The position numbers and the translations under genes are program-made. Below, in pieces: positions 28,918-41,393 of a stretch of 55,142 nucleotides of DNA. The DNA is taken from contig JABXHW010000060.1 of assembly GCA_013373425.1 (NCBI GenBank), positions 1-55,142 of the forward strand. The letters run 5' to 3'. Numbering within the stretch: position 1 is the first letter of the stretch; each line of letters opens with the position of its first letter. Origin of the DNA: Flavobacteriia bacterium (GTDB taxonomy: Bacteria > Bacteroidota > Bacteroidia > Flavobacteriales > Schleiferiaceae). The notes under the pieces were generated by a model that ran no database searches, was not told the DNA's origin, and saw only the letters and a program-made list of their open reading frames with translations.

Positions 28918-30942
28918 ATGAAAAGACTATCCATCCTCATCGTAGCGGTTCTACTTATCGCATGCGAGAAGAACATAATCGAAGAGCCAACGCCATCCGA
29001 CCAAAGTCCATTGACTATGGAAAATATGGATGTAGCGAATGGTTTTAATTACGAAACATCAAGCCTTGTGGGAGGTAGCATCCAAGTGTTGGACTTGGAT
29101 GATAATCCGATGGAGAACGTGCGAATTTCCCTCTATGACAAACGACCTGATGAAGGAGGGAAAGTCCTTTTCCAAGGTCTGACGGATAACAGTGGTCAGT
29201 TCACACCTGGATTCACTTTACCAAGACATATTGAGCGGGTGGCAGTTGTTTGTCATGCTATGGGTTTCCCGAACTTGAAGGTAGTAGAAGTACGTTCGGG
29301 AAATCTCATAGCCACTTTTGGTGGTAGCTCCTTCAAGGCGTTGAACGGAACAGGGAAGGGAGAAAACTTCAAAACGATTACTTCGGCTGGAGCGAACTGC
29401 TTTTATATTTCAACCTATAATTCCCAAGGGGTTCCCGCTAATTTTGAGCCTGTGAATGATGTGGTTGATCAGAGTTTTCTGGACATGGTGAACTATTCGC
29501 TGCCAGAACAAGCTCCTGTTCCTGTCGCCAATCCACATTATTTGGCCACAGGGAACAGCACAGACATTGATATTAGTGCGAATGCAGATGTCTGGATCAC
29601 TTTCGTACATGAAGGAGCTGGGTACAGAAATGCTTTGGGATACTTTACCTATCCAACCAACAACCCTCCAACATCCACAGCGGCTATTGATAGCATTTTC
29701 ATTCTTCTTCCCAATGCGAGTTTTCAAAATTCGGGAGGTGGTTTGTATTCGGGAAACAAGATTCGTTTGGGGCAATTTGGACCGAATACGTCTATTGGAT
29801 GGGTAATCTTTCAAAATGCTTGGGACGGGAGTGGCGTAAATGTAAATCGTCAGAAGTTTTATTCGAACCCAGACTTCAACCCCGAATCAACAGCCGCTCG
29901 CAGACAACACAATGTTCAGCTTTTTGACAATTCAAGAGATGTGATTCTCATTGGTTTTGAAGACTTGAACCGCGACGGTGGATCGGATGAGGATTTCAAC
30001 GATCTGATCTACTATGTGACGGCGAATCCAATTACAGCGGTATCAACAATCAATCTACCTACAACTACTGAGGTAGCGCCTGATTCCGACTTGGATGGTG
30101 TCGTGAATACAGGAGATGACTATCCCTTTGATGCGAATAAGGCCTTCGATAATTGGGCGTATGGAACCCTCGCCTTTGAAGATATGTGGCCGCTTAAAGG
30201 GGATTATGACTTTAATGATTTAGTAGCGGGATATGCATTCAATCAAGTGACCAACGCGAATGGACTCGTAGTTGAGATTAATATGGATCTTGAAATCCGC
30301 GCCATTGGAGCGGCGAATACCAATGCATTGGGATTCGTTTTGGGAGACGCGTTGAGTTCTGACATTGGTTCTATCAATGGCCAATTCCTCAATGGGAACG
30401 TTGTGAACACCAGTGGAGGTGAAGACGGTCAAACGAATGCAGCTTTCATCGCTATCGATGATATGTATGAATTCTTAGGAAGGCCGGAAGGCGCCTTTTT
30501 CAATACATTGGATTTCAAACCCGCTGAGGCTTATGATTCCTTGAGTATTCAAATTACAATGGCCAATCCGGTGTCCCCATCTGTCCTAGGTCCTGTTCCT
30601 TTCAATGCGTTCATTGTTCCAGGAGGCGTTTCTGGAGGAGGTGCTAGAACCGAAATTCACATGGCTAATTATCCACCATCAGATTTGATGAGTGGAGATG
30701 AGTTTGGCAATGCCGACGACGATAGTAATGCGAATCAAGGACGGTGGTACAAGACCGAAACGAACTTGCCTTGGGCTATCAATGTAGCCTCTACACAGTA
30801 TGATCACGTGAAGGAATTCGAACCGATTATCGATGCCTATCTACACTTTGCAGCATGGGCAGAGTCAGCGGGTTTGCAGTATAGCGATTGGTACCAACCG
30901 AATGCTGGATACAGAAACTCAAGTAAGATTTTCGGGAATTAA
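28918..30942 (+). CDS. LruC-domain lipoprotein (DUF4114/DUF4842-type)
   Basis: Protein of 674 aa with a lipoprotein signal (MKRLSILIVAVLLIAC, lipidated Cys16). After a carboxypeptidase-regulatory-like segment (about 50-110), a DUF4114-type region contains E-D-L-N-R-D-G-G-S-D-E-D-F-N-D-L. A calcium-binding thrombospondin-3-like piece follows (D-S-D-L-D-G-V), and then the LruC domain with K-G-D-Y-D-F-N-D-L-V. Family knowledge: LruC proteins are common surface lipoproteins in Bacteroidota and Leptospira; the biochemical role is unclear. Convergent with the hybrid kinase gene; the stops overlap by 4 bp. Its position at the end of the locus suggests a cell-surface partner of the polysaccharide, but that is inference. 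Confidence 0.82.
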   Translation: MKRLSILIVAVLLIACEKNIIEEPTPSDQSPLTMENMDVANGFNYETSSLVGGSIQVLDLDDNPMENVRISLYDKRPDEGGKVLFQGLTDNSGQFTPGFTLPRHIERVAVVCHAMGFPNLKVVEVRSGNLIATFGGSSFKALNGTGKGENFKTITSAGANCFYISTYNSQGVPANFEPVNDVVDQSFLDMVNYSLPEQAPVPVANPHYLATGNSTDIDISANADVWITFVHEGAGYRNALGYFTYPTNNPPTSTAAIDSIFILLPNASFQNSGGGLYSGNKIRLGQFGPNTSIGWVIFQNAWDGSGVNVNRQKFYSNPDFNPESTAARRQHNVQLFDNSRDVILIGFEDLNRDGGSDEDFNDLIYYVTANPITAVSTINLPTTTEVAPDSDLDGVVNTGDDYPFDANKAFDNWAYGTLAFEDMWPLKGDYDFNDLVAGYAFNQVTNANGLVVEINMDLEIRAIGAANTNALGFVLGDALSSDIGSINGQFLNGNVVNTSGGEDGQTNAAFIAIDDMYEFLGRPEGAFFNTLDFKPAEAYDSLSIQITMANPVSPSVLGPVPFNAFIVPGGVSGGGARTEIHMANYPPSDLMSGDEFGNADDDSNANQGRWYKTETNLPWAINVASTQYDHVKEFEPIIDAYLHFAAWAESAGLQYSDWYQPNAGYRNSSKIFGN

Positions 30943-33791
30943 ATCAACTGCTCAATTCTTCTGAGCTCAACTTCAACAGCTGGGATGTACTTCTTGAATA
31001 ACTCTTGAATTACATCCCATTGCTTGTTGATGTTTTCTTCATTTTGAAAGCGCAATGTGTCCTCCAAATTCTGGAATTCAGTCTGAAGGATAGGCACTCC
31101 CACCATGGTAAAGCCAGGCTTCATCTGGTGAGCAATCTTCTGAGCTTCCTTGTAGTCCTTGTTCATGATGAATTGATGCAGTGAAGACTTTAGGCGATCA
31201 AACTGATTGAAGAACAACATGAACATGTCATACTGCGACTTCAAATTGCCATCGTAAAACATATTCATGGTCTCTCTATCGAGTAAAGCATCTGGCTTAG
31301 GCGTGGCTACTGGTTTTACAATCGCTTGTTTTGCTTCATCAGACCCTTCACCGAGCCATGTGGCTAATCGTTGTTTCAATTCGAATGGGGTGAAAGGCTT
31401 GGTCATGTAGTCGTTCATTCCCAAATCATACGCCTTGTTCTTTTTGGTTGAAAGAGCAGAGGCAGTTAGCGCGATAATAGGCGTATCGCTATTTGGCGAT
31501 TCGCTGTTTCGAAGCTTGATAGTGGTTTCATATCCATCCATCACCGGCATGGAGATGTCCATGAAGATTAGGTCGTATTTCTTCTTCTTACACATGTCCA
31601 AGGCCTCCAAGCCATTGTTGGCCATATCGTAATCTAGCGGCTCATTCTTGAGCAGCTTCTGAATGTAGTTCTGATTGATAACCGTGTCTTCTACGAAGAG
31701 AACAGACTTGTTTGTGTCGAATTTTGTGCTATCGACTTTACGTGAGGAGATCTTCTTTTTCGTCACTTCCAGTGGGAGCTTCACTATAAAGGTGGTTCCT
31801 TCTCCTTTTGTGCTTTCTACTTCAATGCTTCCATGGAGGAATTCAACAATCTTCTTGGAGATGGAAAGGCCGAGTCCTGTTCCGCCATATTTTGTCTGCG
31901 TGTCTCGCGTCTCTTGACGGAACTGTTCAAAGATGTCTTTCAATTTATCTTCTGAGATGCCGATACCTGTATCCTTCACAGTGAATGTGACTTCACATCT
32001 TCCGTCTTTGCCGGCTTGCAGCTCTGTGGAAAGGGTGATTTCTCCTTCATTGGTGAACTTCTCTGCGTTCCCGAGAAGGTTATACAAGACTTGATTGATC
32101 ATAGTTTCATCCCCTCTTACCAGATTCTTGAGCTCTGGCGAATGGGTGATGAACTGAATAGGCTTGTTTTTCGCTTTGAGCTCGAAGGTCTTGTGAAGGG
32201 TGTTGAGCATGGCGCTCAAATCAAAATCAATTTCATTGAGCTCTAGTCGACCCGACTTAATCTTGGAGAAGTCTAGGATATCCGTAACCAAGTTGTTTAA
32301 AAGGTTCGCCGAATATTGGATCATCTCCAGGTATTCCTTCTGCTCGTTGGTTGGATTGGTATCATAGAGTAAGTGACTCATTCCAATCACTGCATTGAGG
32401 GGAGTGCGGATTTCATGACTCATACTTGCCAAGAACTGCTGTTCGGCTTCTTGTGCTTGCTCAGCTACTTCTTTGGCATTGAGAATTTCCGTTTGAAGGA
32501 GTTTTTGATCGGTGATATCGAAATGAATGCCTACCGAACCAATGACTTCTCCTTTTAGATTGTAGAAGGGAGCCCCGGAAATGATGGTCCAAATTCGCTC
32601 TCCATTCTTTTTGATAAGCTCTACTTCAAAAACACTCTGTTCTCCACGAGCTCTTTTCTCGTGTTCGGAATCCAAGACAGGCAGGTATTCTGGAGCGAGA
32701 AAGACGTCTTCTCCACGCTTACCCAAGAGCTCCGCTTCTGTATAGCCTATCATTTTACTGAACCAATCGTATACGCGGGTAATCTTGCCATCTTTATCAA
32801 CTTCCAAGAGGCCCAGCTCCATGTTTTCAATGATGCCGCGATACTTTTCCTCACTATTTCGAATTTTGAGATCAAGTTGTTTTTGTGCGGTTACATCCAC
32901 AAACTGCCAGAGCGTTCCCAGGAGCTGATCTTCATTGTAAATCGGCACGTAGTCAAATTGGATGTAGCGGCCATCTCGAAGTTCAACCTCTTGACCAGAC
33001 ACTTTGTGTGAAGAGTGACTTACTTTCTCAAATTCTTCACGCGGGATGCTAAAGTGATTGGTCACATTTTCGAGGATTGTATCCAGAGAATGGCCAATGA
33101 GTTCTTGTGGTTGTTGGTCGATCCTGAAGAAATCACAGAAGTAGTTATTGATTTGAAGAATCCTTCGGTCGCTTGATTGGAGCAACACTCCTGAGTGTAG
33201 GTTGTCGACGAGATTTCGCAATTGCAGACCTTGTGTAAGTAGGATATGTTCATCCTCTTTCTGCTGCGTGATATCACGTGCGATATTGAGGGCTTCCGCC
33301 ATCGAGCCGTCCTCATCGTATGAGAACTCAATATTCTGTCCGAGCCAGATTTGATTTCCATTACGAAGCGGAGTTGGAAACTCAATGTAGGCTCGTGGCT
33401 CTCTGTTCTTAACTACCTTCTTTAATTGCGAGATGATAGTAGCCTTGTGGCTTTCGGCAATGAACGAGGTGTAGTGTTGTAGAATGATTTCTTCGACAGA
33501 AAGGTTGAGCTTTTGAACGCCTACACGATTGACGAAAGAAATGAGTCCTTCTTTGTTGGTGACAAAGATGATTTCATTTGCGCCTTCAATGAGGTTCCGA
33601 TAGCGGGTTTCGCTTTTTGCTAAATCATTTGTGCGTTGTTCAACCTTAGATTCCAACTGAGCATTTAAGTTGCGCAGTTGCTCATTCGCGTTGTAGAGCT
33701 CCAAAGATTTCGACTCAAGGAGAGCTTCGGCTGCTTTTCGAGCGTTGATCTCACGCTCTATTCGCCTTTTGAGTGCGTCTTCTGAGCTCAT
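30939..33791 (-). CDS. Soluble hybrid histidine kinase (PAS3-HisKA-HATPase-REC-HPt)
   Basis: Protein of 950 aa without membrane segments. An N-terminal coiled coil (1-60) is followed by three PAS domains (about 62-180, 190-305, 313-430). HisKA has H459 in S-M-S-H-E-I-R-T-P-L-N; the HATPase has N-L-L-G-N-A-E-K-F-T and G-T-G-L-G-L-S-I. The receiver has D745 in F-M-D-I-S-M-P, and the C-terminal HPt has H888 in A-H-Q-M-K-P. All phosphorelay residues are present. It is translationally coupled to the H-NOX gene (TAATG), the classic pairing in which NO-bound H-NOX changes kinase activity. The output could be the orphan regulators at 16920 or 18257, which is speculative. Confidence 0.9.
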   Translation of the reverse strand: MSSEDALKRRIEREINARKAAEALLESKSLELYNANEQLRNLNAQLESKVEQRTNDLAKSETRYRNLIEGANEIIFVTNKEGLISFVNRVGVQKLNLSVEEIILQHYTSFIAESHKATIISQLKKVVKNREPRAYIEFPTPLRNGNQIWLGQNIEFSYDEDGSMAEALNIARDITQQKEDEHILLTQGLQLRNLVDNLHSGVLLQSSDRRILQINNYFCDFFRIDQQPQELIGHSLDTILENVTNHFSIPREEFEKVSHSSHKVSGQEVELRDGRYIQFDYVPIYNEDQLLGTLWQFVDVTAQKQLDLKIRNSEEKYRGIIENMELGLLEVDKDGKITRVYDWFSKMIGYTEAELLGKRGEDVFLAPEYLPVLDSEHEKRARGEQSVFEVELIKKNGERIWTIISGAPFYNLKGEVIGSVGIHFDITDQKLLQTEILNAKEVAEQAQEAEQQFLASMSHEIRTPLNAVIGMSHLLYDTNPTNEQKEYLEMIQYSANLLNNLVTDILDFSKIKSGRLELNEIDFDLSAMLNTLHKTFELKAKNKPIQFITHSPELKNLVRGDETMINQVLYNLLGNAEKFTNEGEITLSTELQAGKDGRCEVTFTVKDTGIGISEDKLKDIFEQFRQETRDTQTKYGGTGLGLSISKKIVEFLHGSIEVESTKGEGTTFIVKLPLEVTKKKISSRKVDSTKFDTNKSVLFVEDTVINQNYIQKLLKNEPLDYDMANNGLEALDMCKKKKYDLIFMDISMPVMDGYETTIKLRNSESPNSDTPIIALTASALSTKKNKAYDLGMNDYMTKPFTPFELKQRLATWLGEGSDEAKQAIVKPVATPKPDALLDRETMNMFYDGNLKSQYDMFMLFFNQFDRLKSSLHQFIMNKDYKEAQKIAHQMKPGFTMVGVPILQTEFQNLEDTLRFQNEENINKQWDVIQELFKKYIPAVEVELRRIEQLI

Positions 33792-34330
33792 TACAATTTC
33801 TCGATTCTGAATGTCACTTTGCTCCCATCTTTCTCCAGCAACTCCTTTTGGATTTGAACAGACTCACCGTATTGTTCGGCCGCTTTCTCAATAAGGCCTA
33901 GAGCGAAATCGCTTAGCTTTCGTTCGGATGAATAAATCAACTCCATGGCAGAGGGAGTCAGATCTTTAGTTTCAAAACTGGGGAGTTCTGCATCGCTGTA
34001 TAGCTTTCTTACCTCAACGTGTATATGTCCATGAATAGAATCGAGGAAGTCGAATAGGGTAGGAGCACTATCGAAGAACCCTCTGTAATTTGAATGTAGG
34101 TGATTGAAGAAGTAGTTTCCGAAAAGTCGAATCAATTCTGGAACGGGTATGTCAGAATGTTGATGGAGGGAGGCAATCATATCAACTAGCTCCGCGTGGT
34201 TGTATGTACCGACAGCAGTGTATGCTCCGTCGTTGGCTAAATCTGATTCTGCGATGATGCGATCGACCATTTCGTAGCCAAATGCATCCTCTACCATTTC
34301 CAAAAACTCGGTGAATACGATTCCTTTCAT
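33791..34330 (-). CDS. H-NOX heme nitric-oxide sensor
   Basis: Protein of 179 aa, the usual single-domain H-NOX size. The proximal heme ligand is H100 in L-D-S-I-H-G-H, P117 sits in the conserved A-E-L-P segment, and the Y133-x-S135-x-R137 motif that holds the heme propionates is intact. Family knowledge: bacterial H-NOX binds NO on ferrous heme and regulates a partner kinase or cyclase encoded beside it, often controlling biofilm formation. Here the partner is the hybrid kinase just downstream. Upstream, about 90-130 bp from the ATG, lie the two palindromic sites at 34420-34457. Confidence 0.93.
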   Translation of the reverse strand: MKGIVFTEFLEMVEDAFGYEMVDRIIAESDLANDGAYTAVGTYNHAELVDMIASLHQHSDIPVPELIRLFGNYFFNHLHSNYRGFFDSAPTLFDFLDSIHGHIHVEVRKLYSDAELPSFETKDLTPSAMELIYSSERKLSDFALGLIEKAAEQYGESVQIQKELLEKDGSKVTFRIEKL

Positions 34331-34547: not shown

Positions 34548-36335
34548 ATGAGCACAGAAAATCAGTACATCGTTTCCGCTAGAAAGTACCGTCCATCCAC
34601 GTTTGAGTCGGTGGTCGGTCAGCAGCATATTACCAATACACTCCAGAACGCCATTGAGCAAGATCACTTGGCTCAAGCCTTGTTGTTTTGCGGTCCGCGT
34701 GGAGTGGGGAAAACAACGTGTGCACGAATTCTTGCTAAGAAAATCAATGAGCATTACGGGACAGAAGGTGAGGATTATACCCTCAATATCTTCGAACTCG
34801 ATGCTGCCTCGAATAACTCTGTAGATGATATTCGAAGTTTGATTGAGCAAGTGCGATTTGCACCTCAAGTGGGAGAGTTCAAGGTGTACATCATCGATGA
34901 GGTTCACATGCTCTCTCAAGCGGCGTTTAACGCTTTTCTGAAAACTCTCGAGGAGCCACCAAAGCACGCCATCTTTATTTTGGCGACTACCGAAAAGCAC
35001 AAGATTATTCCAACCATCCTCTCTCGTTGTCAGATTTTCGACTTCAAGAGAATTACGGTAGAGGACATCGCGAAGCATCTGGCTTGGGTAGCTCAGCAAG
35101 AAGGAATCACGGCTGATCCCGATGCATTACACCTCATTGCACAGAAGGCGGATGGTGCGTTGCGTGATAGCCTTTCTATTTTTGATAGAATTGCATCTTT
35201 CAGCGATCAGAATATCAGCTATGAAGCCGTTCTCGAGAACCTCAATATTCTCGATTACGATTATTACTTCCGAGCAGTAGAGCACATTCAAGCTGGATCA
35301 GTAAAAGATGTGTTGCTGCTTTTCAGAGAGATTCTGGATAAGGGCTTTGATGGTCACATGTTCTTAACCGGACTCGCTTCTCATCTTCGCGACTTGCTTG
35401 TTGGGAAAGATCAAGCTACACTTGCATTATTGGAGGTAGGCGAGAACATCCGCCAACGATACATCGAGCAATCGGGTAAGGTAGATCTCGTATTCCTCAT
35501 TCAAGCCCTGAAGATTTGTACCGAGGCCGATGAAAAGTACAAGGCGAGTCACAACCATCGCTTACACGTCGAAGTTGCACTTCTAAAGCTCACGGAACTC
35601 GTTCAGTCTGTGAACGAAAAAAAAAACTCAGCTAGTCAGCCCGTAGCCGGGCCACCACAACAGGAAGTTGTAGTTGAGGTAGCTCCTGCAAGGCGACCCA
35701 CTCCAAAGGAAGAGCCTAAAGAATCCTCATCGCCATCTGCACCTGATGCGGAAGCAACTCCACCAGCAGAAGAAAAGCCGAAATCTGAGCCTCGTCCTTC
35801 GGCATTACGACAAGGACCTGAGCCGGAGAAGCGCGAGGTAGTAAAGCCCAAGTCGCGAAGAGGCTCCCGACTAAAAGGATATTCGCTGAAAGACCTGGAT
35901 GCCAAACCTGAAGTGGAAGGCGAAGAAGGGACGGAGGAATCAACCGCGAGAATTGATACTTCAGGATTACCCAAGGAGTATTTTTCTGAGCACGAACTGA
36001 AGGACGTGTGGCAGGCCTACTTGAAAAAGGTAGAGCACAAAAAATCGATTTATAGCACCCTATCCCGCCATCAACCTAAGTTGTTGGACAACTTCAAGAT
36101 TGAACTTGTTCTAGATAACAAGATCCAAGAAGGGTACTTGCAGGGTGCACGTCCGGACCTGATGGCATTCCTTCGAACCGAGCTGAAAAACTTCAAGATT
36201 GAACTTATCTCCAAGGTGACGGAAAAGGAGGAAGTGAAGACCTTGTACACTCCGGAAGAGAAGTACCAACACATGGTTGAAAAGAATCCAATCCTTGCAG
36301 AGTTTAGAAAGAAACTCGATCTCGACTTAGAGTAG
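34548..36335 (+). CDS. dnaX: DNA polymerase III gamma/tau subunit
   Basis: Protein of 595 aa as the full-length tau form. The clamp-loader AAA+ part has Walker A G-P-R-G-V-G-K-T-T, Walker B Y-I-I-D-E-V-H-M-L, sensor I A-T-T-E and the S-R-C arginine finger. The cysteines of the usual zinc-binding insertion are absent: the stretch between K-K-I-N-E-H and L-D-A-A-S is short. A Pro/Glu-rich linker (about 360-450) precedes the tau C-terminal domain. At the end of the clamp-loader domain, an A10 run (35617-35626, codons 357-360) creates a slippage or frameshift site; reading shifts either way hit a stop within a few codons, yielding a gamma-like product of about 362 aa. Confidence 0.95.
   Translation: MSTENQYIVSARKYRPSTFESVVGQQHITNTLQNAIEQDHLAQALLFCGPRGVGKTTCARILAKKINEHYGTEGEDYTLNIFELDAASNNSVDDIRSLIEQVRFAPQVGEFKVYIIDEVHMLSQAAFNAFLKTLEEPPKHAIFILATTEKHKIIPTILSRCQIFDFKRITVEDIAKHLAWVAQQEGITADPDALHLIAQKADGALRDSLSIFDRIASFSDQNISYEAVLENLNILDYDYYFRAVEHIQAGSVKDVLLLFREILDKGFDGHMFLTGLASHLRDLLVGKDQATLALLEVGENIRQRYIEQSGKVDLVFLIQALKICTEADEKYKASHNHRLHVEVALLKLTELVQSVNEKKNSASQPVAGPPQQEVVVEVAPARRPTPKEEPKESSSPSAPDAEATPPAEEKPKSEPRPSALRQGPEPEKREVVKPKSRRGSRLKGYSLKDLDAKPEVEGEEGTEESTARIDTSGLPKEYFSEHELKDVWQAYLKKVEHKKSIYSTLSRHQPKLLDNFKIELVLDNKIQEGYLQGARPDLMAFLRTELKNFKIELISKVTEKEEVKTLYTPEEKYQHMVEKNPILAEFRKKLDLDLE
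35617..35626 (+). promoter_or_regulatory. A10 slippery tract in dnaX (gamma/tau switch candidate)
   Basis: Ten A in a row, read GAA AAA AAA AAC in the tau frame. Gain of one A, or a -1 ribosomal shift, gives K-L-S then TAG at once. Loss of one A gives a TAG six codons after the shifted codon begins. The site sits exactly between the clamp-loader domain and the linker, as in dnaX genes known to make gamma by slippage or frameshifting. Confidence 0.6.
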
Positions 36336-36367
36336 TTCTACTGAAATCTAACCTTTCCTGATTGTCG

Positions 36368-36375
36368 TATCTTCG
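36368..36375 (+). promoter_or_regulatory. Possible -7 box for the giant secreted protein
   Basis: TATCTTCG differs from TAnnTTTG at one position and ends 29 bp before the ATG at 36405. No -33 element is evident. Confidence 0.4.
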
Positions 36376-36404
36376 AAGGAGCACTAAACGAAGACCTGAC
36401 TGTC

Positions 36405-39400
36405 ATGAAGCGATTGTTACTGCCGCTAACGGCGATTTCTGCCCTAACTCTATTCTTCTTTTTGCAATCTCCTACTGAAAAGGAGGCCTATCGCGATATG
36501 GTGAATGCTCACCCTTATTCGCAAAGGACTCCCTTGACGATGGAGGAACTCGACGCCATTCCAAAGAGAGATCGCCCTGACCTAGCTTGGGAGCAGGATT
36601 TCTTGGCAACGATAGACCCGAACTTGGGTAGACCCGCTCCCGAGCGTTTGCACGACGCTTACCGACAAGTGGAGACTTTCCAGAATCAAACTTTCTCAAC
36701 ACCTGGAGCTGCTGGAACCCCTTGGGTTGAAAGAGGTCCAACCAACGTAGGAGGAAGAACTCGAGCTATCATGTTCGACCCGAATGATACCGCCCATAAG
36801 AAGGTTTGGGCTGGAGGCGTTACGGGCGGACTATGGTACAACAATGACATTACAGACATCAACAGCACATGGGTTGCCGTAGATGATTTCTGGGATAATA
36901 TTTCAATCACATCCATCGCTCATGACCCGACCAATACCAACGTATTCTACGTAGGAACCGGTGAAGGCTGGGGTGCAGGTGCTAGTAGGGGCGAAGGCGT
37001 ATGGAAGTCGATTGACGGCGGTGCTACTTGGACCCAACTTTCCGCTACAACCAGTTTCTATTATGTAAACGACTTGGTAGTTCGCAATGAAAGTGGAACA
37101 GGAGTGCTTTATGTTGGAACGCGCGGTAATTACTACAATGGTCAATGGCATGGCAGCGCTGCTCAGGGATTACAGCGTTCCACAAATGGGGGGTCCTCAT
37201 TTACTCAAGTCATGCCGAATATTCCTGGCGAGACTTTCAACTATGCCGTGGCTGATATTGAATTGGCTGCCAATGGTCGAATTTGGGTGGGAACTCAAGA
37301 TGCGTCCTATGGCGGAACGGATAGAGGAGGAGGAAGAGTATTGTATTCTGACAATGGAACGACATGGACCTCTTCTTACAACTCAACCTCTGGTGACAGA
37401 GTTGAGATTGCTTGCGCACCATCGAATAGCAACTACGTTTATGCGCTGGTTGAAGTGAGCTCACAAATTGGCGAACTCAAGGTGACCACCAATGGTGGCA
37501 CAACTTGGGGCAACATGACACAGCCGAACGATGCGGACCCGGGTATTTCATCAACAGATTTTTCAAGAGGACAGGCTTGGTATGATATGATCTTGGCCGT
37601 TGACCCAACGACAGCAACTACAGTTTATGCTGGAGCAATTGATTTGTTCAGAAGTACAAATACAGGTGGGGCTTGGACACAAATCTCACACTGGTACGGC
37701 GGATTCGGATATCCCTATGTGCATGCCGATCAGCACCAATTGGTATTCAACCCCAATAATTCGAGTCAATTGTTGATTGGAAACGATGGTGGAGTGCAAA
37801 TGACAGATAATCCTACTGCGTCATCGCCGACGTTCACTTCCCTGAATAGAAACTACAACGTCACTCAATTTTATGCGGCGGCCTTGCATCCAAACTCCGG
37901 GAGCAATTACGCCCTAGCGGGAACTCAGGATAACGGAACTCAGCAGTTTTCTACGGCCGGATTGGCTGGGACTGTAGAAGTCACGGGTGGTGATGGAGCT
38001 TTCTGTTTCATTGATCAAACCAATCCGAATATTCAAATTACGAGCTACGTATACAATAGCTATTGGAGAAGTACAGATGGGGGAAGTACTTTCCAGAATC
38101 CGCGCTTCATCAATGATCAGTCAACCGGTAGGTTTATCAACCCAGCAGATTACGATGATAATCAAGATGCACTTTATTCGGCTAGAACGACAACAACTTT
38201 GAATCGGGCACTGAATGTGGGTGGGACTCCTTCTGTGAGCTCCATTACGATATCAGGTATGTCTGATATGGCATCCCACATTCGCGTATCGCCTTACACC
38301 ACGTCTTCGACCACTCTTTTTGTGGGAACAGGATCTGGCGATTTATTCAAAGTGACGAATGCGAATAGTTCTCCATCAGCTACGAGTATTGGTTCGGCAT
38401 TGCCTGCAGGATATATTTCGTGCGTGGAGATTGGGGCTAGCGAGAATGAATTATTGGTAACGTACACGAACTATGGATTGACCTCAGTTTGGTACACCAA
38501 TAACGGAGGTACGACTTGGGTGAGCAAAGAAGGGAATTTGCCAGATATGCCTGTTCGATGGGCTCTTTTCAATCCAAATGATAGAACGGAAGTAATTCTC
38601 GCAACTGAAGTTGGTGTTTGGGAAACATCAAACTTTGCAGCGAGCTCCCCGTCTTGGTCGCCGAGCAATAGCGGGTTAGCGAATGTGAGAGTGGATATGC
38701 TCCAGATTCGAGACAGTGATGATATGGTGATTGCTGCAACGCACGGAAGAGGAATGTTCATGAGCAATGGCTTTGGTCAGCCTACGGTTCCAGTAGCTGA
38801 CTTCACAGCTTCGAACACTTCTCCATGTGTTGGCGAAAGCGTGAGTTTGATGGATAACTCTACAGGAATTCCTACATCCTATGCGTGGTACATTTCACCA
38901 TCTACCTTTAGCTATCTGAATGGAACCGACTCTACCTCAGCTTCTCCTGAAGTGAGTTTCAGCACATCGGGAACGTACACGATTGGCCTGACGGTCAGTA
39001 ATGCCAATGGAACCGACAGTGTGTTGCGAATTGGGCATGTTGATGTGGGTGGATTTGGACTTCCTTATTCAGAAGATTTCGAGTCTGGATTTACAGATTG
39101 GACAATTGATAACCCTGATGCGGGGATCACATGGGCGAGCTATACTGTTGGAGGAAACTCACCGGGTTCAACTGCCATGGGAATTAACAATTACGGTTAC
39201 AGCACCACTGGTCAGCGGGATGGTTTGATTTCTCCGCCATTAGATTTTACCGGGTACTCCTCAATTACTTTAGATTTCGATTACGCATATAGAAGGTACA
39301 GTTCATCGTATCAGGATAGTCTTGCAGTTTACATTAGTACAGATTGTGGTGCGACTTGGACCAAAGTGGCATCCTATAGAGAAAATGGAACGAGCAACTT

Positions 39401-41393
39401 CGTGACTGGCTCAGATTTAACCAGTTCATTTACTCCGTCGACCACAGGTGATTGGTGCGGTACAAGTCCAACATGTCCATCCATCAACCTCAATGCTTAC
39501 GCGGGGAATAGTGGAGTGAAGATCAAGATTGAAAATATCAACGGGTATGGTAACTACCTGTATGTCGACAATATCAGCGTGACAGGTGTATTGAATGTTG
39601 CGCCCACCTCCAATTTCACGGCGTCTAGTACACAAGAGTGCGAGAATCAGACAATAACGTTTACAGATAACTCAACGGGTTCGCCATCCTCATGGAGCTG
39701 GACGGTCACGCCGAGTTCAGGAGTGAGTTATGTGGGCGGGACGAGCGCGACGAGTCAGAATCCACAGATTCAATTCGCTAATAGTGGCTCGTACGATGTG
39801 AGTCTTACAGCTACAAACGGCATTGGCTCTGATGTAGAACTGAAATCGAGCTACATCACAATTGATCCTGTAGTTACACCAGCAGCAAGTATTAGTGTGT
39901 CTCAAAACAATATTTGCTCGGGCACGAGTGTCACTTTCACAGCGACTCCAACCGGAGGTGGAAGTTCAGCTACGTATCAATGGAAATTGAACGGTTCCAA
40001 CGTTGGGTCTAATAGCACGACCTACACTTCATCGAGCTTATCTTCTTCCGATTCAATTTGGGTAGAGTTAACAAGCAGCGAGTCGTGCGCAAGTCCGACT
40101 ACCGTTACCAGCAATGGAATTGGAATGAATGTGACACCAACGATTACGCCTTCGGTGAGTATTTCTTCGAGTTCATCCACCATTTGTTCAGGTACAAATG
40201 TGACCTTCACTGCTAATCCATCGAATGGAGGCAGTTCACCTCAATACGCTTGGAAAGTCAATGGTGCAACTGCGGGTACGAATAGTTCTTCCTTCTCTTC
40301 CAGCACACTCACCAATGGTGATGTGGTAACGGTTGAGCTCACCAATAGCGATGCTTGTGTATCAACGGCCACGGTGACTTCGAATTCAATCACTATGACC
40401 GTGAATCCGTCAGTAACCCCACAAGTATCGATAAGCAACAACGCGACAAGCAATACGGTATGCGATGGAACTTCTGTAATGTTTACTGCAGCACCCACCA
40501 ATGGTGGAAGTTCACCTGTTTATCAGTGGATTGTGAACGGCAGTCCAGTTGGGACAAATTCATCCACATACACTTTACAGCAGTCGCCAGGTGTATATGA
40601 TGTACGTGTTGCCTTGGTCAGCTCTGCTTCTTGCTTAACTCAAGCGAGCGATACAAGTACGACATCGACTATTACTGTTGATGCTCTTCCGACAGTCACA
40701 CTGACAACACCGTTTATCATCAATGCTTATTGTAAAGAGGATACGATTCCTCTAACGGGTACACCGACGGGAGGAACCTTCAGTGGTGCTGGCGTGAACG
40801 GAACGGAATTCAGAGCTTCAGATGCAGGAAATGGAACGCACTGGGTGTATTACACGTACACGAATTCGAATGGCTGTTCGGCAAGCGATTCTGCTTCTGT
40901 GCTCGTGGAGATTGTACCTGAACCTCAGATAAGCTATTCAAATGGAGTACTTACTTGCACGACGACTGGTTTTCCATATCAGTGGTTTGATGCCAATGGG
41001 CCTATTGCAGGCGAGACGAATCAGACTTTTACACCAACTGCAAATGGAACTTATTACGTTCGGATTAATGGCACAGACTGTTTTGACGAATCGTCGAGTA
41101 TAAGTGTCAATGATATCCATTTGGAAGAGTGGAGCTCTGTATCGAGCGTATCACTTTATCCGATTCCTGCCAGTCATGTGCTTACTTTAGAGGTGGATGC
41201 ACTCACTTCTGAAGAAGTCCTATTAGAAGTGACTGAGATGAGCGGTAAGGTGGTGATTCGTGAAGTCATCGAGCTTCAAGCTGGAAGTCAAAGTCGACAA
41301 CTAGAAGTAGGTAATCTTACTTCTGGGGCGTACTTACTGAGAATGACAGGAGAGAGCGGAGCCATGGTGAAATCATTTGAAATAGTCCGATGA
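36405..41393 (+). CDS. Giant T9SS-secreted beta-propeller / PKD / Ig-like protein
   Basis: Protein of 1662 aa with a signal peptide (1-21). Residues about 105-790 hold BNR/VPS10-sortilin-like propeller repeats (S-x-D-G-G-x-T-W type: S-I-D-G-G-A-T-W-T, S-T-N-G-G-S-S-F, T-T-N-G-G-T-T-W). A PKD domain follows (about 795-880), a jelly-roll 'choice-of-anchor' segment beginning Y-S-E-D-F-E-S-G (about 887-1062), a second PKD (about 1067-1155) and three tandem Ig-like repeats of about 90 aa (1156-1428). The last 75 residues are a type A T9SS sorting domain (L-Y-P-I-P-A-S near its start, L-T-S-G-A-Y-L-L-R near the end). Probably a cell-surface or released adhesin/glycan-binding protein. Overlaps the next lipoprotein gene by ATGA. 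Confidence 0.87.
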   Translation: MKRLLLPLTAISALTLFFFLQSPTEKEAYRDMVNAHPYSQRTPLTMEELDAIPKRDRPDLAWEQDFLATIDPNLGRPAPERLHDAYRQVETFQNQTFSTPGAAGTPWVERGPTNVGGRTRAIMFDPNDTAHKKVWAGGVTGGLWYNNDITDINSTWVAVDDFWDNISITSIAHDPTNTNVFYVGTGEGWGAGASRGEGVWKSIDGGATWTQLSATTSFYYVNDLVVRNESGTGVLYVGTRGNYYNGQWHGSAAQGLQRSTNGGSSFTQVMPNIPGETFNYAVADIELAANGRIWVGTQDASYGGTDRGGGRVLYSDNGTTWTSSYNSTSGDRVEIACAPSNSNYVYALVEVSSQIGELKVTTNGGTTWGNMTQPNDADPGISSTDFSRGQAWYDMILAVDPTTATTVYAGAIDLFRSTNTGGAWTQISHWYGGFGYPYVHADQHQLVFNPNNSSQLLIGNDGGVQMTDNPTASSPTFTSLNRNYNVTQFYAAALHPNSGSNYALAGTQDNGTQQFSTAGLAGTVEVTGGDGAFCFIDQTNPNIQITSYVYNSYWRSTDGGSTFQNPRFINDQSTGRFINPADYDDNQDALYSARTTTTLNRALNVGGTPSVSSITISGMSDMASHIRVSPYTTSSTTLFVGTGSGDLFKVTNANSSPSATSIGSALPAGYISCVEIGASENELLVTYTNYGLTSVWYTNNGGTTWVSKEGNLPDMPVRWALFNPNDRTEVILATEVGVWETSNFAASSPSWSPSNSGLANVRVDMLQIRDSDDMVIAATHGRGMFMSNGFGQPTVPVADFTASNTSPCVGESVSLMDNSTGIPTSYAWYISPSTFSYLNGTDSTSASPEVSFSTSGTYTIGLTVSNANGTDSVLRIGHVDVGGFGLPYSEDFESGFTDWTIDNPDAGITWASYTVGGNSPGSTAMGINNYGYSTTGQRDGLISPPLDFTGYSSITLDFDYAYRRYSSSYQDSLAVYISTDCGATWTKVASYRENGTSNFVTGSDLTSSFTPSTTGDWCGTSPTCPSINLNAYAGNSGVKIKIENINGYGNYLYVDNISVTGVLNVAPTSNFTASSTQECENQTITFTDNSTGSPSSWSWTVTPSSGVSYVGGTSATSQNPQIQFANSGSYDVSLTATNGIGSDVELKSSYITIDPVVTPAASISVSQNNICSGTSVTFTATPTGGGSSATYQWKLNGSNVGSNSTTYTSSSLSSSDSIWVELTSSESCASPTTVTSNGIGMNVTPTITPSVSISSSSSTICSGTNVTFTANPSNGGSSPQYAWKVNGATAGTNSSSFSSSTLTNGDVVTVELTNSDACVSTATVTSNSITMTVNPSVTPQVSISNNATSNTVCDGTSVMFTAAPTNGGSSPVYQWIVNGSPVGTNSSTYTLQQSPGVYDVRVALVSSASCLTQASDTSTTSTITVDALPTVTLTTPFIINAYCKEDTIPLTGTPTGGTFSGAGVNGTEFRASDAGNGTHWVYYTYTNSNGCSASDSASVLVEIVPEPQISYSNGVLTCTTTGFPYQWFDANGPIAGETNQTFTPTANGTYYVRINGTDCFDESSSISVNDIHLEEWSSVSSVSLYPIPASHVLTLEVDALTSEEVLLEVTEMSGKVVIREVIELQAGSQSRQLEVGNLTSGAYLLRMTGESGAMVKSFEIVR
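39874..40690 (+). repeat. Three tandem Ig-like domain repeats inside the giant protein gene
   Basis: Three consecutive segments of about 265-275 bp encode the same pattern: a C-S-G-T or C-D-G-T start, T-F-T-A-x-P or M-F-T-A-A-P, G-G-S-S, Y-x-W, N-G, then an S-x-S or A-x-S Cys region. Bases vary between copies, so they are not recent exact duplications. Confidence 0.75.

Follow-up and report, generated by a model that had tools for sequence, protein, structure and literature searches.

A conserved A10 run in dnaX of Bacteroidota as a probable programmed slippage site

How can one uninterrupted reading frame provide both a long and a short form of the clamp-loader subunit? The question is raised by dnaX in a 55,142-nucleotide stretch of DNA from a Flavobacteriia bacterium of the Schleiferiaceae (this whole stretch is hereafter the window), in which ten consecutive A's lie in the tau frame with nearby stops in both other registers. 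A first-pass annotation had read this arrangement as a gamma/tau switch. We examined the gene itself, its dnaX relatives across the genus, family, order and phylum, and the features that might distinguish a slipping polymerase from a shifting ribosome.

The dnaX gene and its A10 run

The predicted product is a full-length DnaX. NF011531, the NCBIfam model for the full-length protein, matched it at 748.8 bits (cut-off 685) over residues 5–594, that is, across the whole protein, and its best solved matches were the gamma/tau chains of E. coli. The Pfam match to domain III (PF12169) covers residues 226–356, and the A10 run opens in the next codon, directly 3′, so that the run does lie in the tau frame at the end of the clamp-loader domains, where the first-pass annotation had placed it. 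The head upstream of the run makes up the entire putative gamma apart from its last 6–10 residues (Table 1).

Table 1. Features of dnaX in the window (window positions).
Feature	Position	Strand	Basis
dnaX (tau reading frame), 595 aa; gamma/tau subunit of DNA polymerase III	34548..36335	+	ORF, NF011531, Pfam, solved matches
Shared head, residues 1–356: ATPase, lid, domain III	34548..35615	+	Pfam PF13177, PF22608, PF12169
A10 slippage run (putative), codons GAA AAA AAA AAC, codons 357–360	35617..35626	+	Sequence, conservation in relatives
TAG, register of one extra A (or −1 ribosomal shift); 362 aa product	35633..35635	+	Sequence, translation
TAG, register of an A9 or A12 run; product of 365 or 366 aa	35644..35646	+	Sequence, translation
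Tau-only linker and C-terminal part	35627..36332	+	ORF; NF011531 coverage

We translated copies of the gene with different run lengths. The A10 gene gives tau, with a calculated mass of 67.4 kDa. With A11, translation ends at the first TAG after 362 aa (KKKLS; calculated 40.9 kDa), with A9 at the second TAG after 365 aa (KKTQLVSP; calculated 41.2 kDa), and with A12 at that same second TAG after 366 aa (calculated 41.3 kDa). These translations bear out the earlier predictions that one extra A would give K-L-S and then TAG, that one A less would reach a TAG after a few codons, and that a gamma-like protein of about 362 aa with the clamp-loader domains would result: the computed lengths are 362–366 aa, and the Pfam domains extend to residue 356. 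The prediction that a −1 ribosomal shift would likewise yield K-L-S held in part; the same TAG is reached, but a shift on A_AAA_AAC may give N-L-S instead.

The 3.09 Mb assembly contains just five distinct runs of ten or more A or T. The dnaX run is the only one of the five that lies within an open frame longer than 100 codons, and two of the others adjoin inverted repeats and are terminator-like. As judged from the relatives sampled, most of which have A9 or more at the same place, the dnaX run is beyond chance.

On the minus strand at 30939–34330, a Haem-NO-binding (HNOB) protein stands beside a PAS/hybrid histidine kinase that also has receiver and Hpt domains, and together they are likely a nitric-oxide sensing pair. 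Downstream of dnaX on the plus strand, the product of 36405–41393 is a 1662-aa protein that combines PKD domains and Ig-like domains with a Por secretion tail.

We consider it probable that the A10 run serves as a programmed site of slippage, mainly of RNA polymerase, through which one gene would give two clamp-loader proteins. RNA polymerase would slip on the template T10 and produce an mRNA pool with varied run lengths. Messages with 10+3n A's would encode the 595-aa tau; on the others, translation would stop at a TAG two or six codons beyond the run, giving a gamma of 362–366 aa. This putative gamma would retain ATPase, lid and domain III in full and would have no tau tail; the two products would be made in some ratio, and gamma would presumably enter the clamp loader.

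Run, stops and tail frame in the relatives

Relatives of the gene were gathered at the levels of genus, family, order and phylum, giving 206 dnaX genes in one pipeline, the order and phylum sets being a selection picked for spread; named loci (the best 80 of 574) formed a second sample. At least nine A's stood at the junction in 189 of the 206 genes of the phylum-wide sample, and this persistence among relatives supports reading the site as a gamma/tau switch by slippage. The run was present in 75 of the 78 readable genes of the same family (A10–A13), in 74/77 genes from other families of the order, in 26/28 from other orders of the class and in 14/21 from other classes of the phylum, and A≥9 was found in 67 of the best 80 of 574 named loci. 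The family sample comprises 88 genomes, eight of which contributed no dnaX piece to the collection; the other 80 are 79 in the pipeline plus G063, whose locus (L059) was dropped from the main pipeline although A10 is present, and the family rows, also 80, include two loci unreadable at the site (L095 and L096; Ns, contig end), hence the 78. One genome, G057, is counted twice: L048 and L074 are two different dnaX genes (A13, A11) on two contigs, and G057 is perhaps, or even probably, a mixed bin.

Run length was exactly 10 in 142 of the 189 genes and 9–11 in most. The run began at codon position 1, 2 or 3 in 35, 110 and 44 genes, respectively, and the peptide across it varied (EKKK, EKKN, KKKS, LKKK, SKKK and others). 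Since all three codon positions are used, it appears to be the nucleotide run that is conserved and not a single peptide. Elsewhere in the genes, 315 of 364 gene parts had a longest A run of 5–7, and seven had one of 9 or 10.

The run seems dispensable in the phylum, because several Bacteroidales lineages among the best 80 of 574 named loci are without it. Among the 13 run-less loci of this sample, 11 are titled Bacteroidales, Bacteroides, Bacteroidaceae or Prevotellaceae and two only Bacteroidetes; other Bacteroidales among the best 80 of 574 keep the run (e.g. L296, L298, L314). Run-less dnaX genes of Bacteroides, Bacteroidaceae, Prevotellaceae and other Bacteroidales are found at L290, L292, L300, L301, L315, L321, L326, L328, L329 and L330. 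Eight of these 10 loci fail to close one or both off-registers within 10 codons, suggesting that the switch was lost there. For the family coded f16, with genomes of 0.3–0.6 Mb, eight of 13 loci were examined: three of the seven with 0.6 Mb genomes have A10–A11 near the head end and the others have none. The f16 loci other than G102 (12) are outside all counts, and G102 is included in the 77 order genes. In G102 itself (L179/L333; 0.34 Mb genome), dnaX stops right after the clamp-loader part, at about 348 aa, with no downstream tau tail detected, and it is possibly a gamma-only gene.

The stops beyond the run were compared with a recoding control, in which the tails of 180 genes with a known tail frame (two of 182 were too short) were each recoded synonymously 200 times with the gene's own codons. 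The register of one A less was closed within 10 codons in 170 of the 180 genes (control mean 46%, best recoding 56%) and that of one A more in 178 (control 63%, best recoding 73%). Both were closed in 169/180 genes, compared with 29% after recoding, in a control that counts genes as independent though many are close kin. Run-less genes differed in the same direction. In the whole-genome set, both registers were closed in 170/182 genes with the run and in 3/13 without, the 13 including three ribosomal-type genes described below. Among the named genes (best 80 of 574), the figures were 62/66 and 2/12 (Fisher p 5e-8), where the tail frame of L305 and L324 is not known and L311, with an uncertain tail frame (the one assigned to it closes after 2 codons), was kept as a failure. 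The off-register count for run-less genes starts at the longest A stretch near the junction, a somewhat arbitrary anchor that in G037 differs from the slippery site. Early closure of both registers was absent in 12 of the 182 run-bearing genes; by family code, all run-bearing genes were closed in 20 of 28 families, part of them in six and none in two (f10 and p43, one sampled gene each). The recoding control and the contrast with run-less genes agree, indicating that nearby stops in both other frames are under selection across the relatives, as the first-pass annotation had suspected from the window.

The frame of the tau tail relative to the head was 0 in 122 of 182 genes, −1 in 57 and +1 in three, with two further +1 tails among the named loci (L251 and L276; best 80 of 574). 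In these split genes the DNA directly encodes gamma, and tau requires a slip. On gene trees of 205 heads (FastTree; IQ-TREE quick), we counted at least 21 changes of tail frame, nine of them within the family, whereas label shuffles on the gene tree (n=50) needed 48 or more; leaving out the three ribosomal-type genes brings the count to 20, and omitting G002 as well brings it to 19. G052, a −1 tail with its break some 95 codons past the run, was excluded from the frame-change and −1-register counts. The window's own genus holds both forms, with tau in frame in G000 and G001 and in +1 in G002, which has A11 and, differing by a single A, may be a sequencing error. In other flips (e.g. G033, G035, G089) A10 is unchanged and the flanks are altered. 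All 12 genes examined from genus code g21 have A10 with the tail in −1, and the split layout also occurs in single-contig genomes (G131, G196) and in separate records, such as that of Flavobacterium denitrificans DSM 15936 among the named loci (L285; A10, tail in −1). On these comparisons, the relatives strengthen the finding far beyond what a single sequence provides.

The same relatives bear on explanations that involve no slippage in expression. The run might be selected as a lysine-rich protein patch, or have drifted, without any recoding, and every register of it does give two or more lysines. This explanation predicts AAG-written KKK in relatives, but KKK occurs at the junction in none of the 28 readable run-less genes (searched from 15 codons upstream to 30 codons downstream of the longest nearby A stretch), although AAG accounts for 31% of lysine codons elsewhere in the dnaX genes of the run pipeline (AAA, 69%). 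The first-pass annotation had proposed conservation of the run as a check, and relatives do not break it with synonymous codons. As the closure of both other registers and the tails in other frames would also be left unexplained, we regard a lysine patch as very improbable. A contingency tract, in which phase-variable length changes in the genome switch tau on and off, strikes us as just as improbable: an A10 could mutate, and G002 is one A different, but the length stays at 10 in 142/189 genes, the frame also changes with A10 intact and flanks altered, and being fixed in a tau-less state would probably cost a cell its replication function. The run lengths and the split genes might also be artifacts of assembly or of homopolymer sequencing, given that homopolymers are error-prone, that the distant break in G052 looks like an error and that the A11 of G002 might be one. 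Such errors, however, would have to recur as the same split across g21, in single-contig genomes and in separate records, and the tau frame is intact in the window; we give this explanation hardly any credence.

Polymerase or ribosome

Gamma could instead be made by the ribosome, a route that the first-pass annotation had left open beside transcriptional slippage, with tRNA-Lys slipping back one base on A_AAA_AAC, or sliding on poly-A, in a −1 frameshift like that of E. coli dnaX. The heptamer A_AAA_AAG is absent from the tau frame at the window site, and A_AAA_AAC, a possible slippery heptamer, lies inside the A10. In E. coli, A_AAA_AAC is much less shift-prone than A_AAA_AAG and the single lysine tRNA helps ribosomal shifting, according to passages of PMC5009743. 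Only tRNA-Lys(UUU) was seen for lysine among 25 tRNA hits in a tRNA set that is incomplete; a single lysine tRNA, as in E. coli, would make a ribosomal share possible. Ribosomes slide on iterated AAA codons in E. coli kinetics described in part of PMC4363877. The tails of split genes are −1 in 57/60 (56/59 without G052), far outnumbering +1 tails, which also fits ribosomal −1 shifting. A downstream folding z below −2 was found in nine of 57 tail −1 genes (16%) compared with 4% of in-frame genes, so that some split genes may have a stimulator. A clear ribosome-type signal is, moreover, present in three genomes of the same family.

Against this, run-bearing genes have no general downstream hairpin (mean folding z −0.33 for 120 in-frame and −0.51 for 57 tail −1 genes), and SD-like motifs upstream of the run are few (10/189 genes, compared with 4 at the control position). 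In the window, the motif set used for the relatives found no SD-like motif among the upstream bases of dnaX, the downstream region has no significant hairpin (folding z −0.98; 30 of 200 shuffled sequences matched or exceeded its stability), and an Rfam search of 35000–36400 gave no match. The run, mostly 9–11 A's, is also longer than the six of a heptamer, and five genes (G103, G152, G002, L251, L276) would need a +1 shift for tau. Further, registers that a −1 shift never enters are closed all the same. Of 121 genes with tau in frame, 111 close the tail +1 register within 10 codons (control 46%, best of 200 recodings 55%), and of 56 genes with the tail in −1, 55 close the tail −1 register (control 58%, best 75%). 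The closure of both registers, together with the lack of a hairpin or Shine-Dalgarno stimulator, favors transcriptional slippage as the likelier mechanism, with a ribosomal contribution possible; a mainly ribosomal origin of gamma at these runs we hold to be unlikely, though a good deal less so than a lysine patch, a contingency tract or sequencing error.

The ribosome-type signal belongs to G037, G060 and G061 (L087, L085 and L086), the only three readable family genes without the run. At about 1240–1330 of the oriented locus, CCA AAA AAG TAG or TAA replaces the A run, and a long hairpin on GGUCUG...CAGACC (−19.9 to −26.5 kcal/mol) follows 5–6 bases after AAG. Gamma is in frame, and the tau tail continues in −1. 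Going by this sequence pattern, the site is a ribosomal frameshift signal, with tau predicted to arise by a −1 shift. The three genes form one clade (support 100) that is joined to four run-bearing family genes (support 96), and from this nesting the swap is most simply read as derived. The heptamer-plus-hairpin pattern was found in two of 395 genomes of the order (G037 and G060), both in this clade; G061 is outside the searched list.

Known systems and evolutionary reading

The dnaX gene of Thermus thermophilus reportedly undergoes transcriptional slippage on an A9 run, as described by Larsen and colleagues in 2000. Passages of two papers (PMC1088944, PMC5009743) describe this gene as having nine A's with stops in both other frames and as undergoing polymerase slippage, with gamma making up about half of the product, and the RNA:DNA hybrid of Thermus RNA polymerase is put at about 9–10 bp in a passage of the latter. 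The window gene resembles it in having a single tau ORF, a run of at least nine A's in the tau frame at the end of the clamp-loader part, near stops in both other registers, and gamma expected from other run lengths. It differs in having A10 in place of A9 and in the position of the run, about 60% through the gene compared with seven-eighths in Thermus (part of PMC1088944), and in the window the slippage is predicted from sequence.

A predicted counterpart comes from GeneTack (Antonov et al., 2013; PMC3711429), parts of which list 17 dnaX genes with two ORFs, ten A's being present in nine, and predict transcriptional slippage; only Chlorobi are named in those parts, for shorter runs. Ten A's and predicted transcriptional slippage are common to those genes and ours, and the split relatives share their layout, whereas the window encodes tau in one ORF and would be invisible to a frame-transition search of the kind those parts describe. 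In E. coli, dnaX serves the same purpose by a −1 ribosomal shift at A_AAA_AAG with an SD and a hairpin, none of which is found at the window site in significant form. G037, G060 and G061 do carry A_AAA_AAG and a hairpin, but with the roles reversed relative to E. coli, gamma being in frame and tau reached by the shift.

As far as the cited parts of these papers go, this kind of slippage run is already known, from the Thermus A9 and from the 2013 prediction of A10 dnaX genes. We had less reason to expect that it would be so widespread in Bacteroidota, that the frame would flip repeatedly, or that A_AAA_AAG, a stop and a strong hairpin would take its place in one clade. A literature search of titles and abstract openings, with most subscription papers outside it, gave no description of the run's spread across the phylum, of how often the frame flipped or of the within-family swap.

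We lean slightly towards a history in which Bacteroidota inherited a polymerase-slippage switch in dnaX, the tail register was near-neutral and moved about 20 times among 0, −1 and +1 (apparently once in the window's genus), one clade swapped to a ribosomal signal, and part of the Bacteroidales lost the switch. Within that reading, the tail register would be near-neutral because a slipping polymerase makes both proteins either way. If true, this would be a case in nature of a single site passing from transcriptional to translational recoding, and the frame flips and the mechanism swap would form natural test sets for how transcriptional and ribosomal recoding come to replace each other. Annotation pipelines may call many of the split dnaX genes broken or short, though they are probably functional. 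Whether gamma, the short clamp-loader subunit, is needed by bacteria at all is a long-standing debate based on E. coli, as a passage of PMC5009743 recounts. A selection-guarded site in most of the Bacteroidota genes sampled, together with the replacement of the mechanism in one clade, suggests that both forms matter there.
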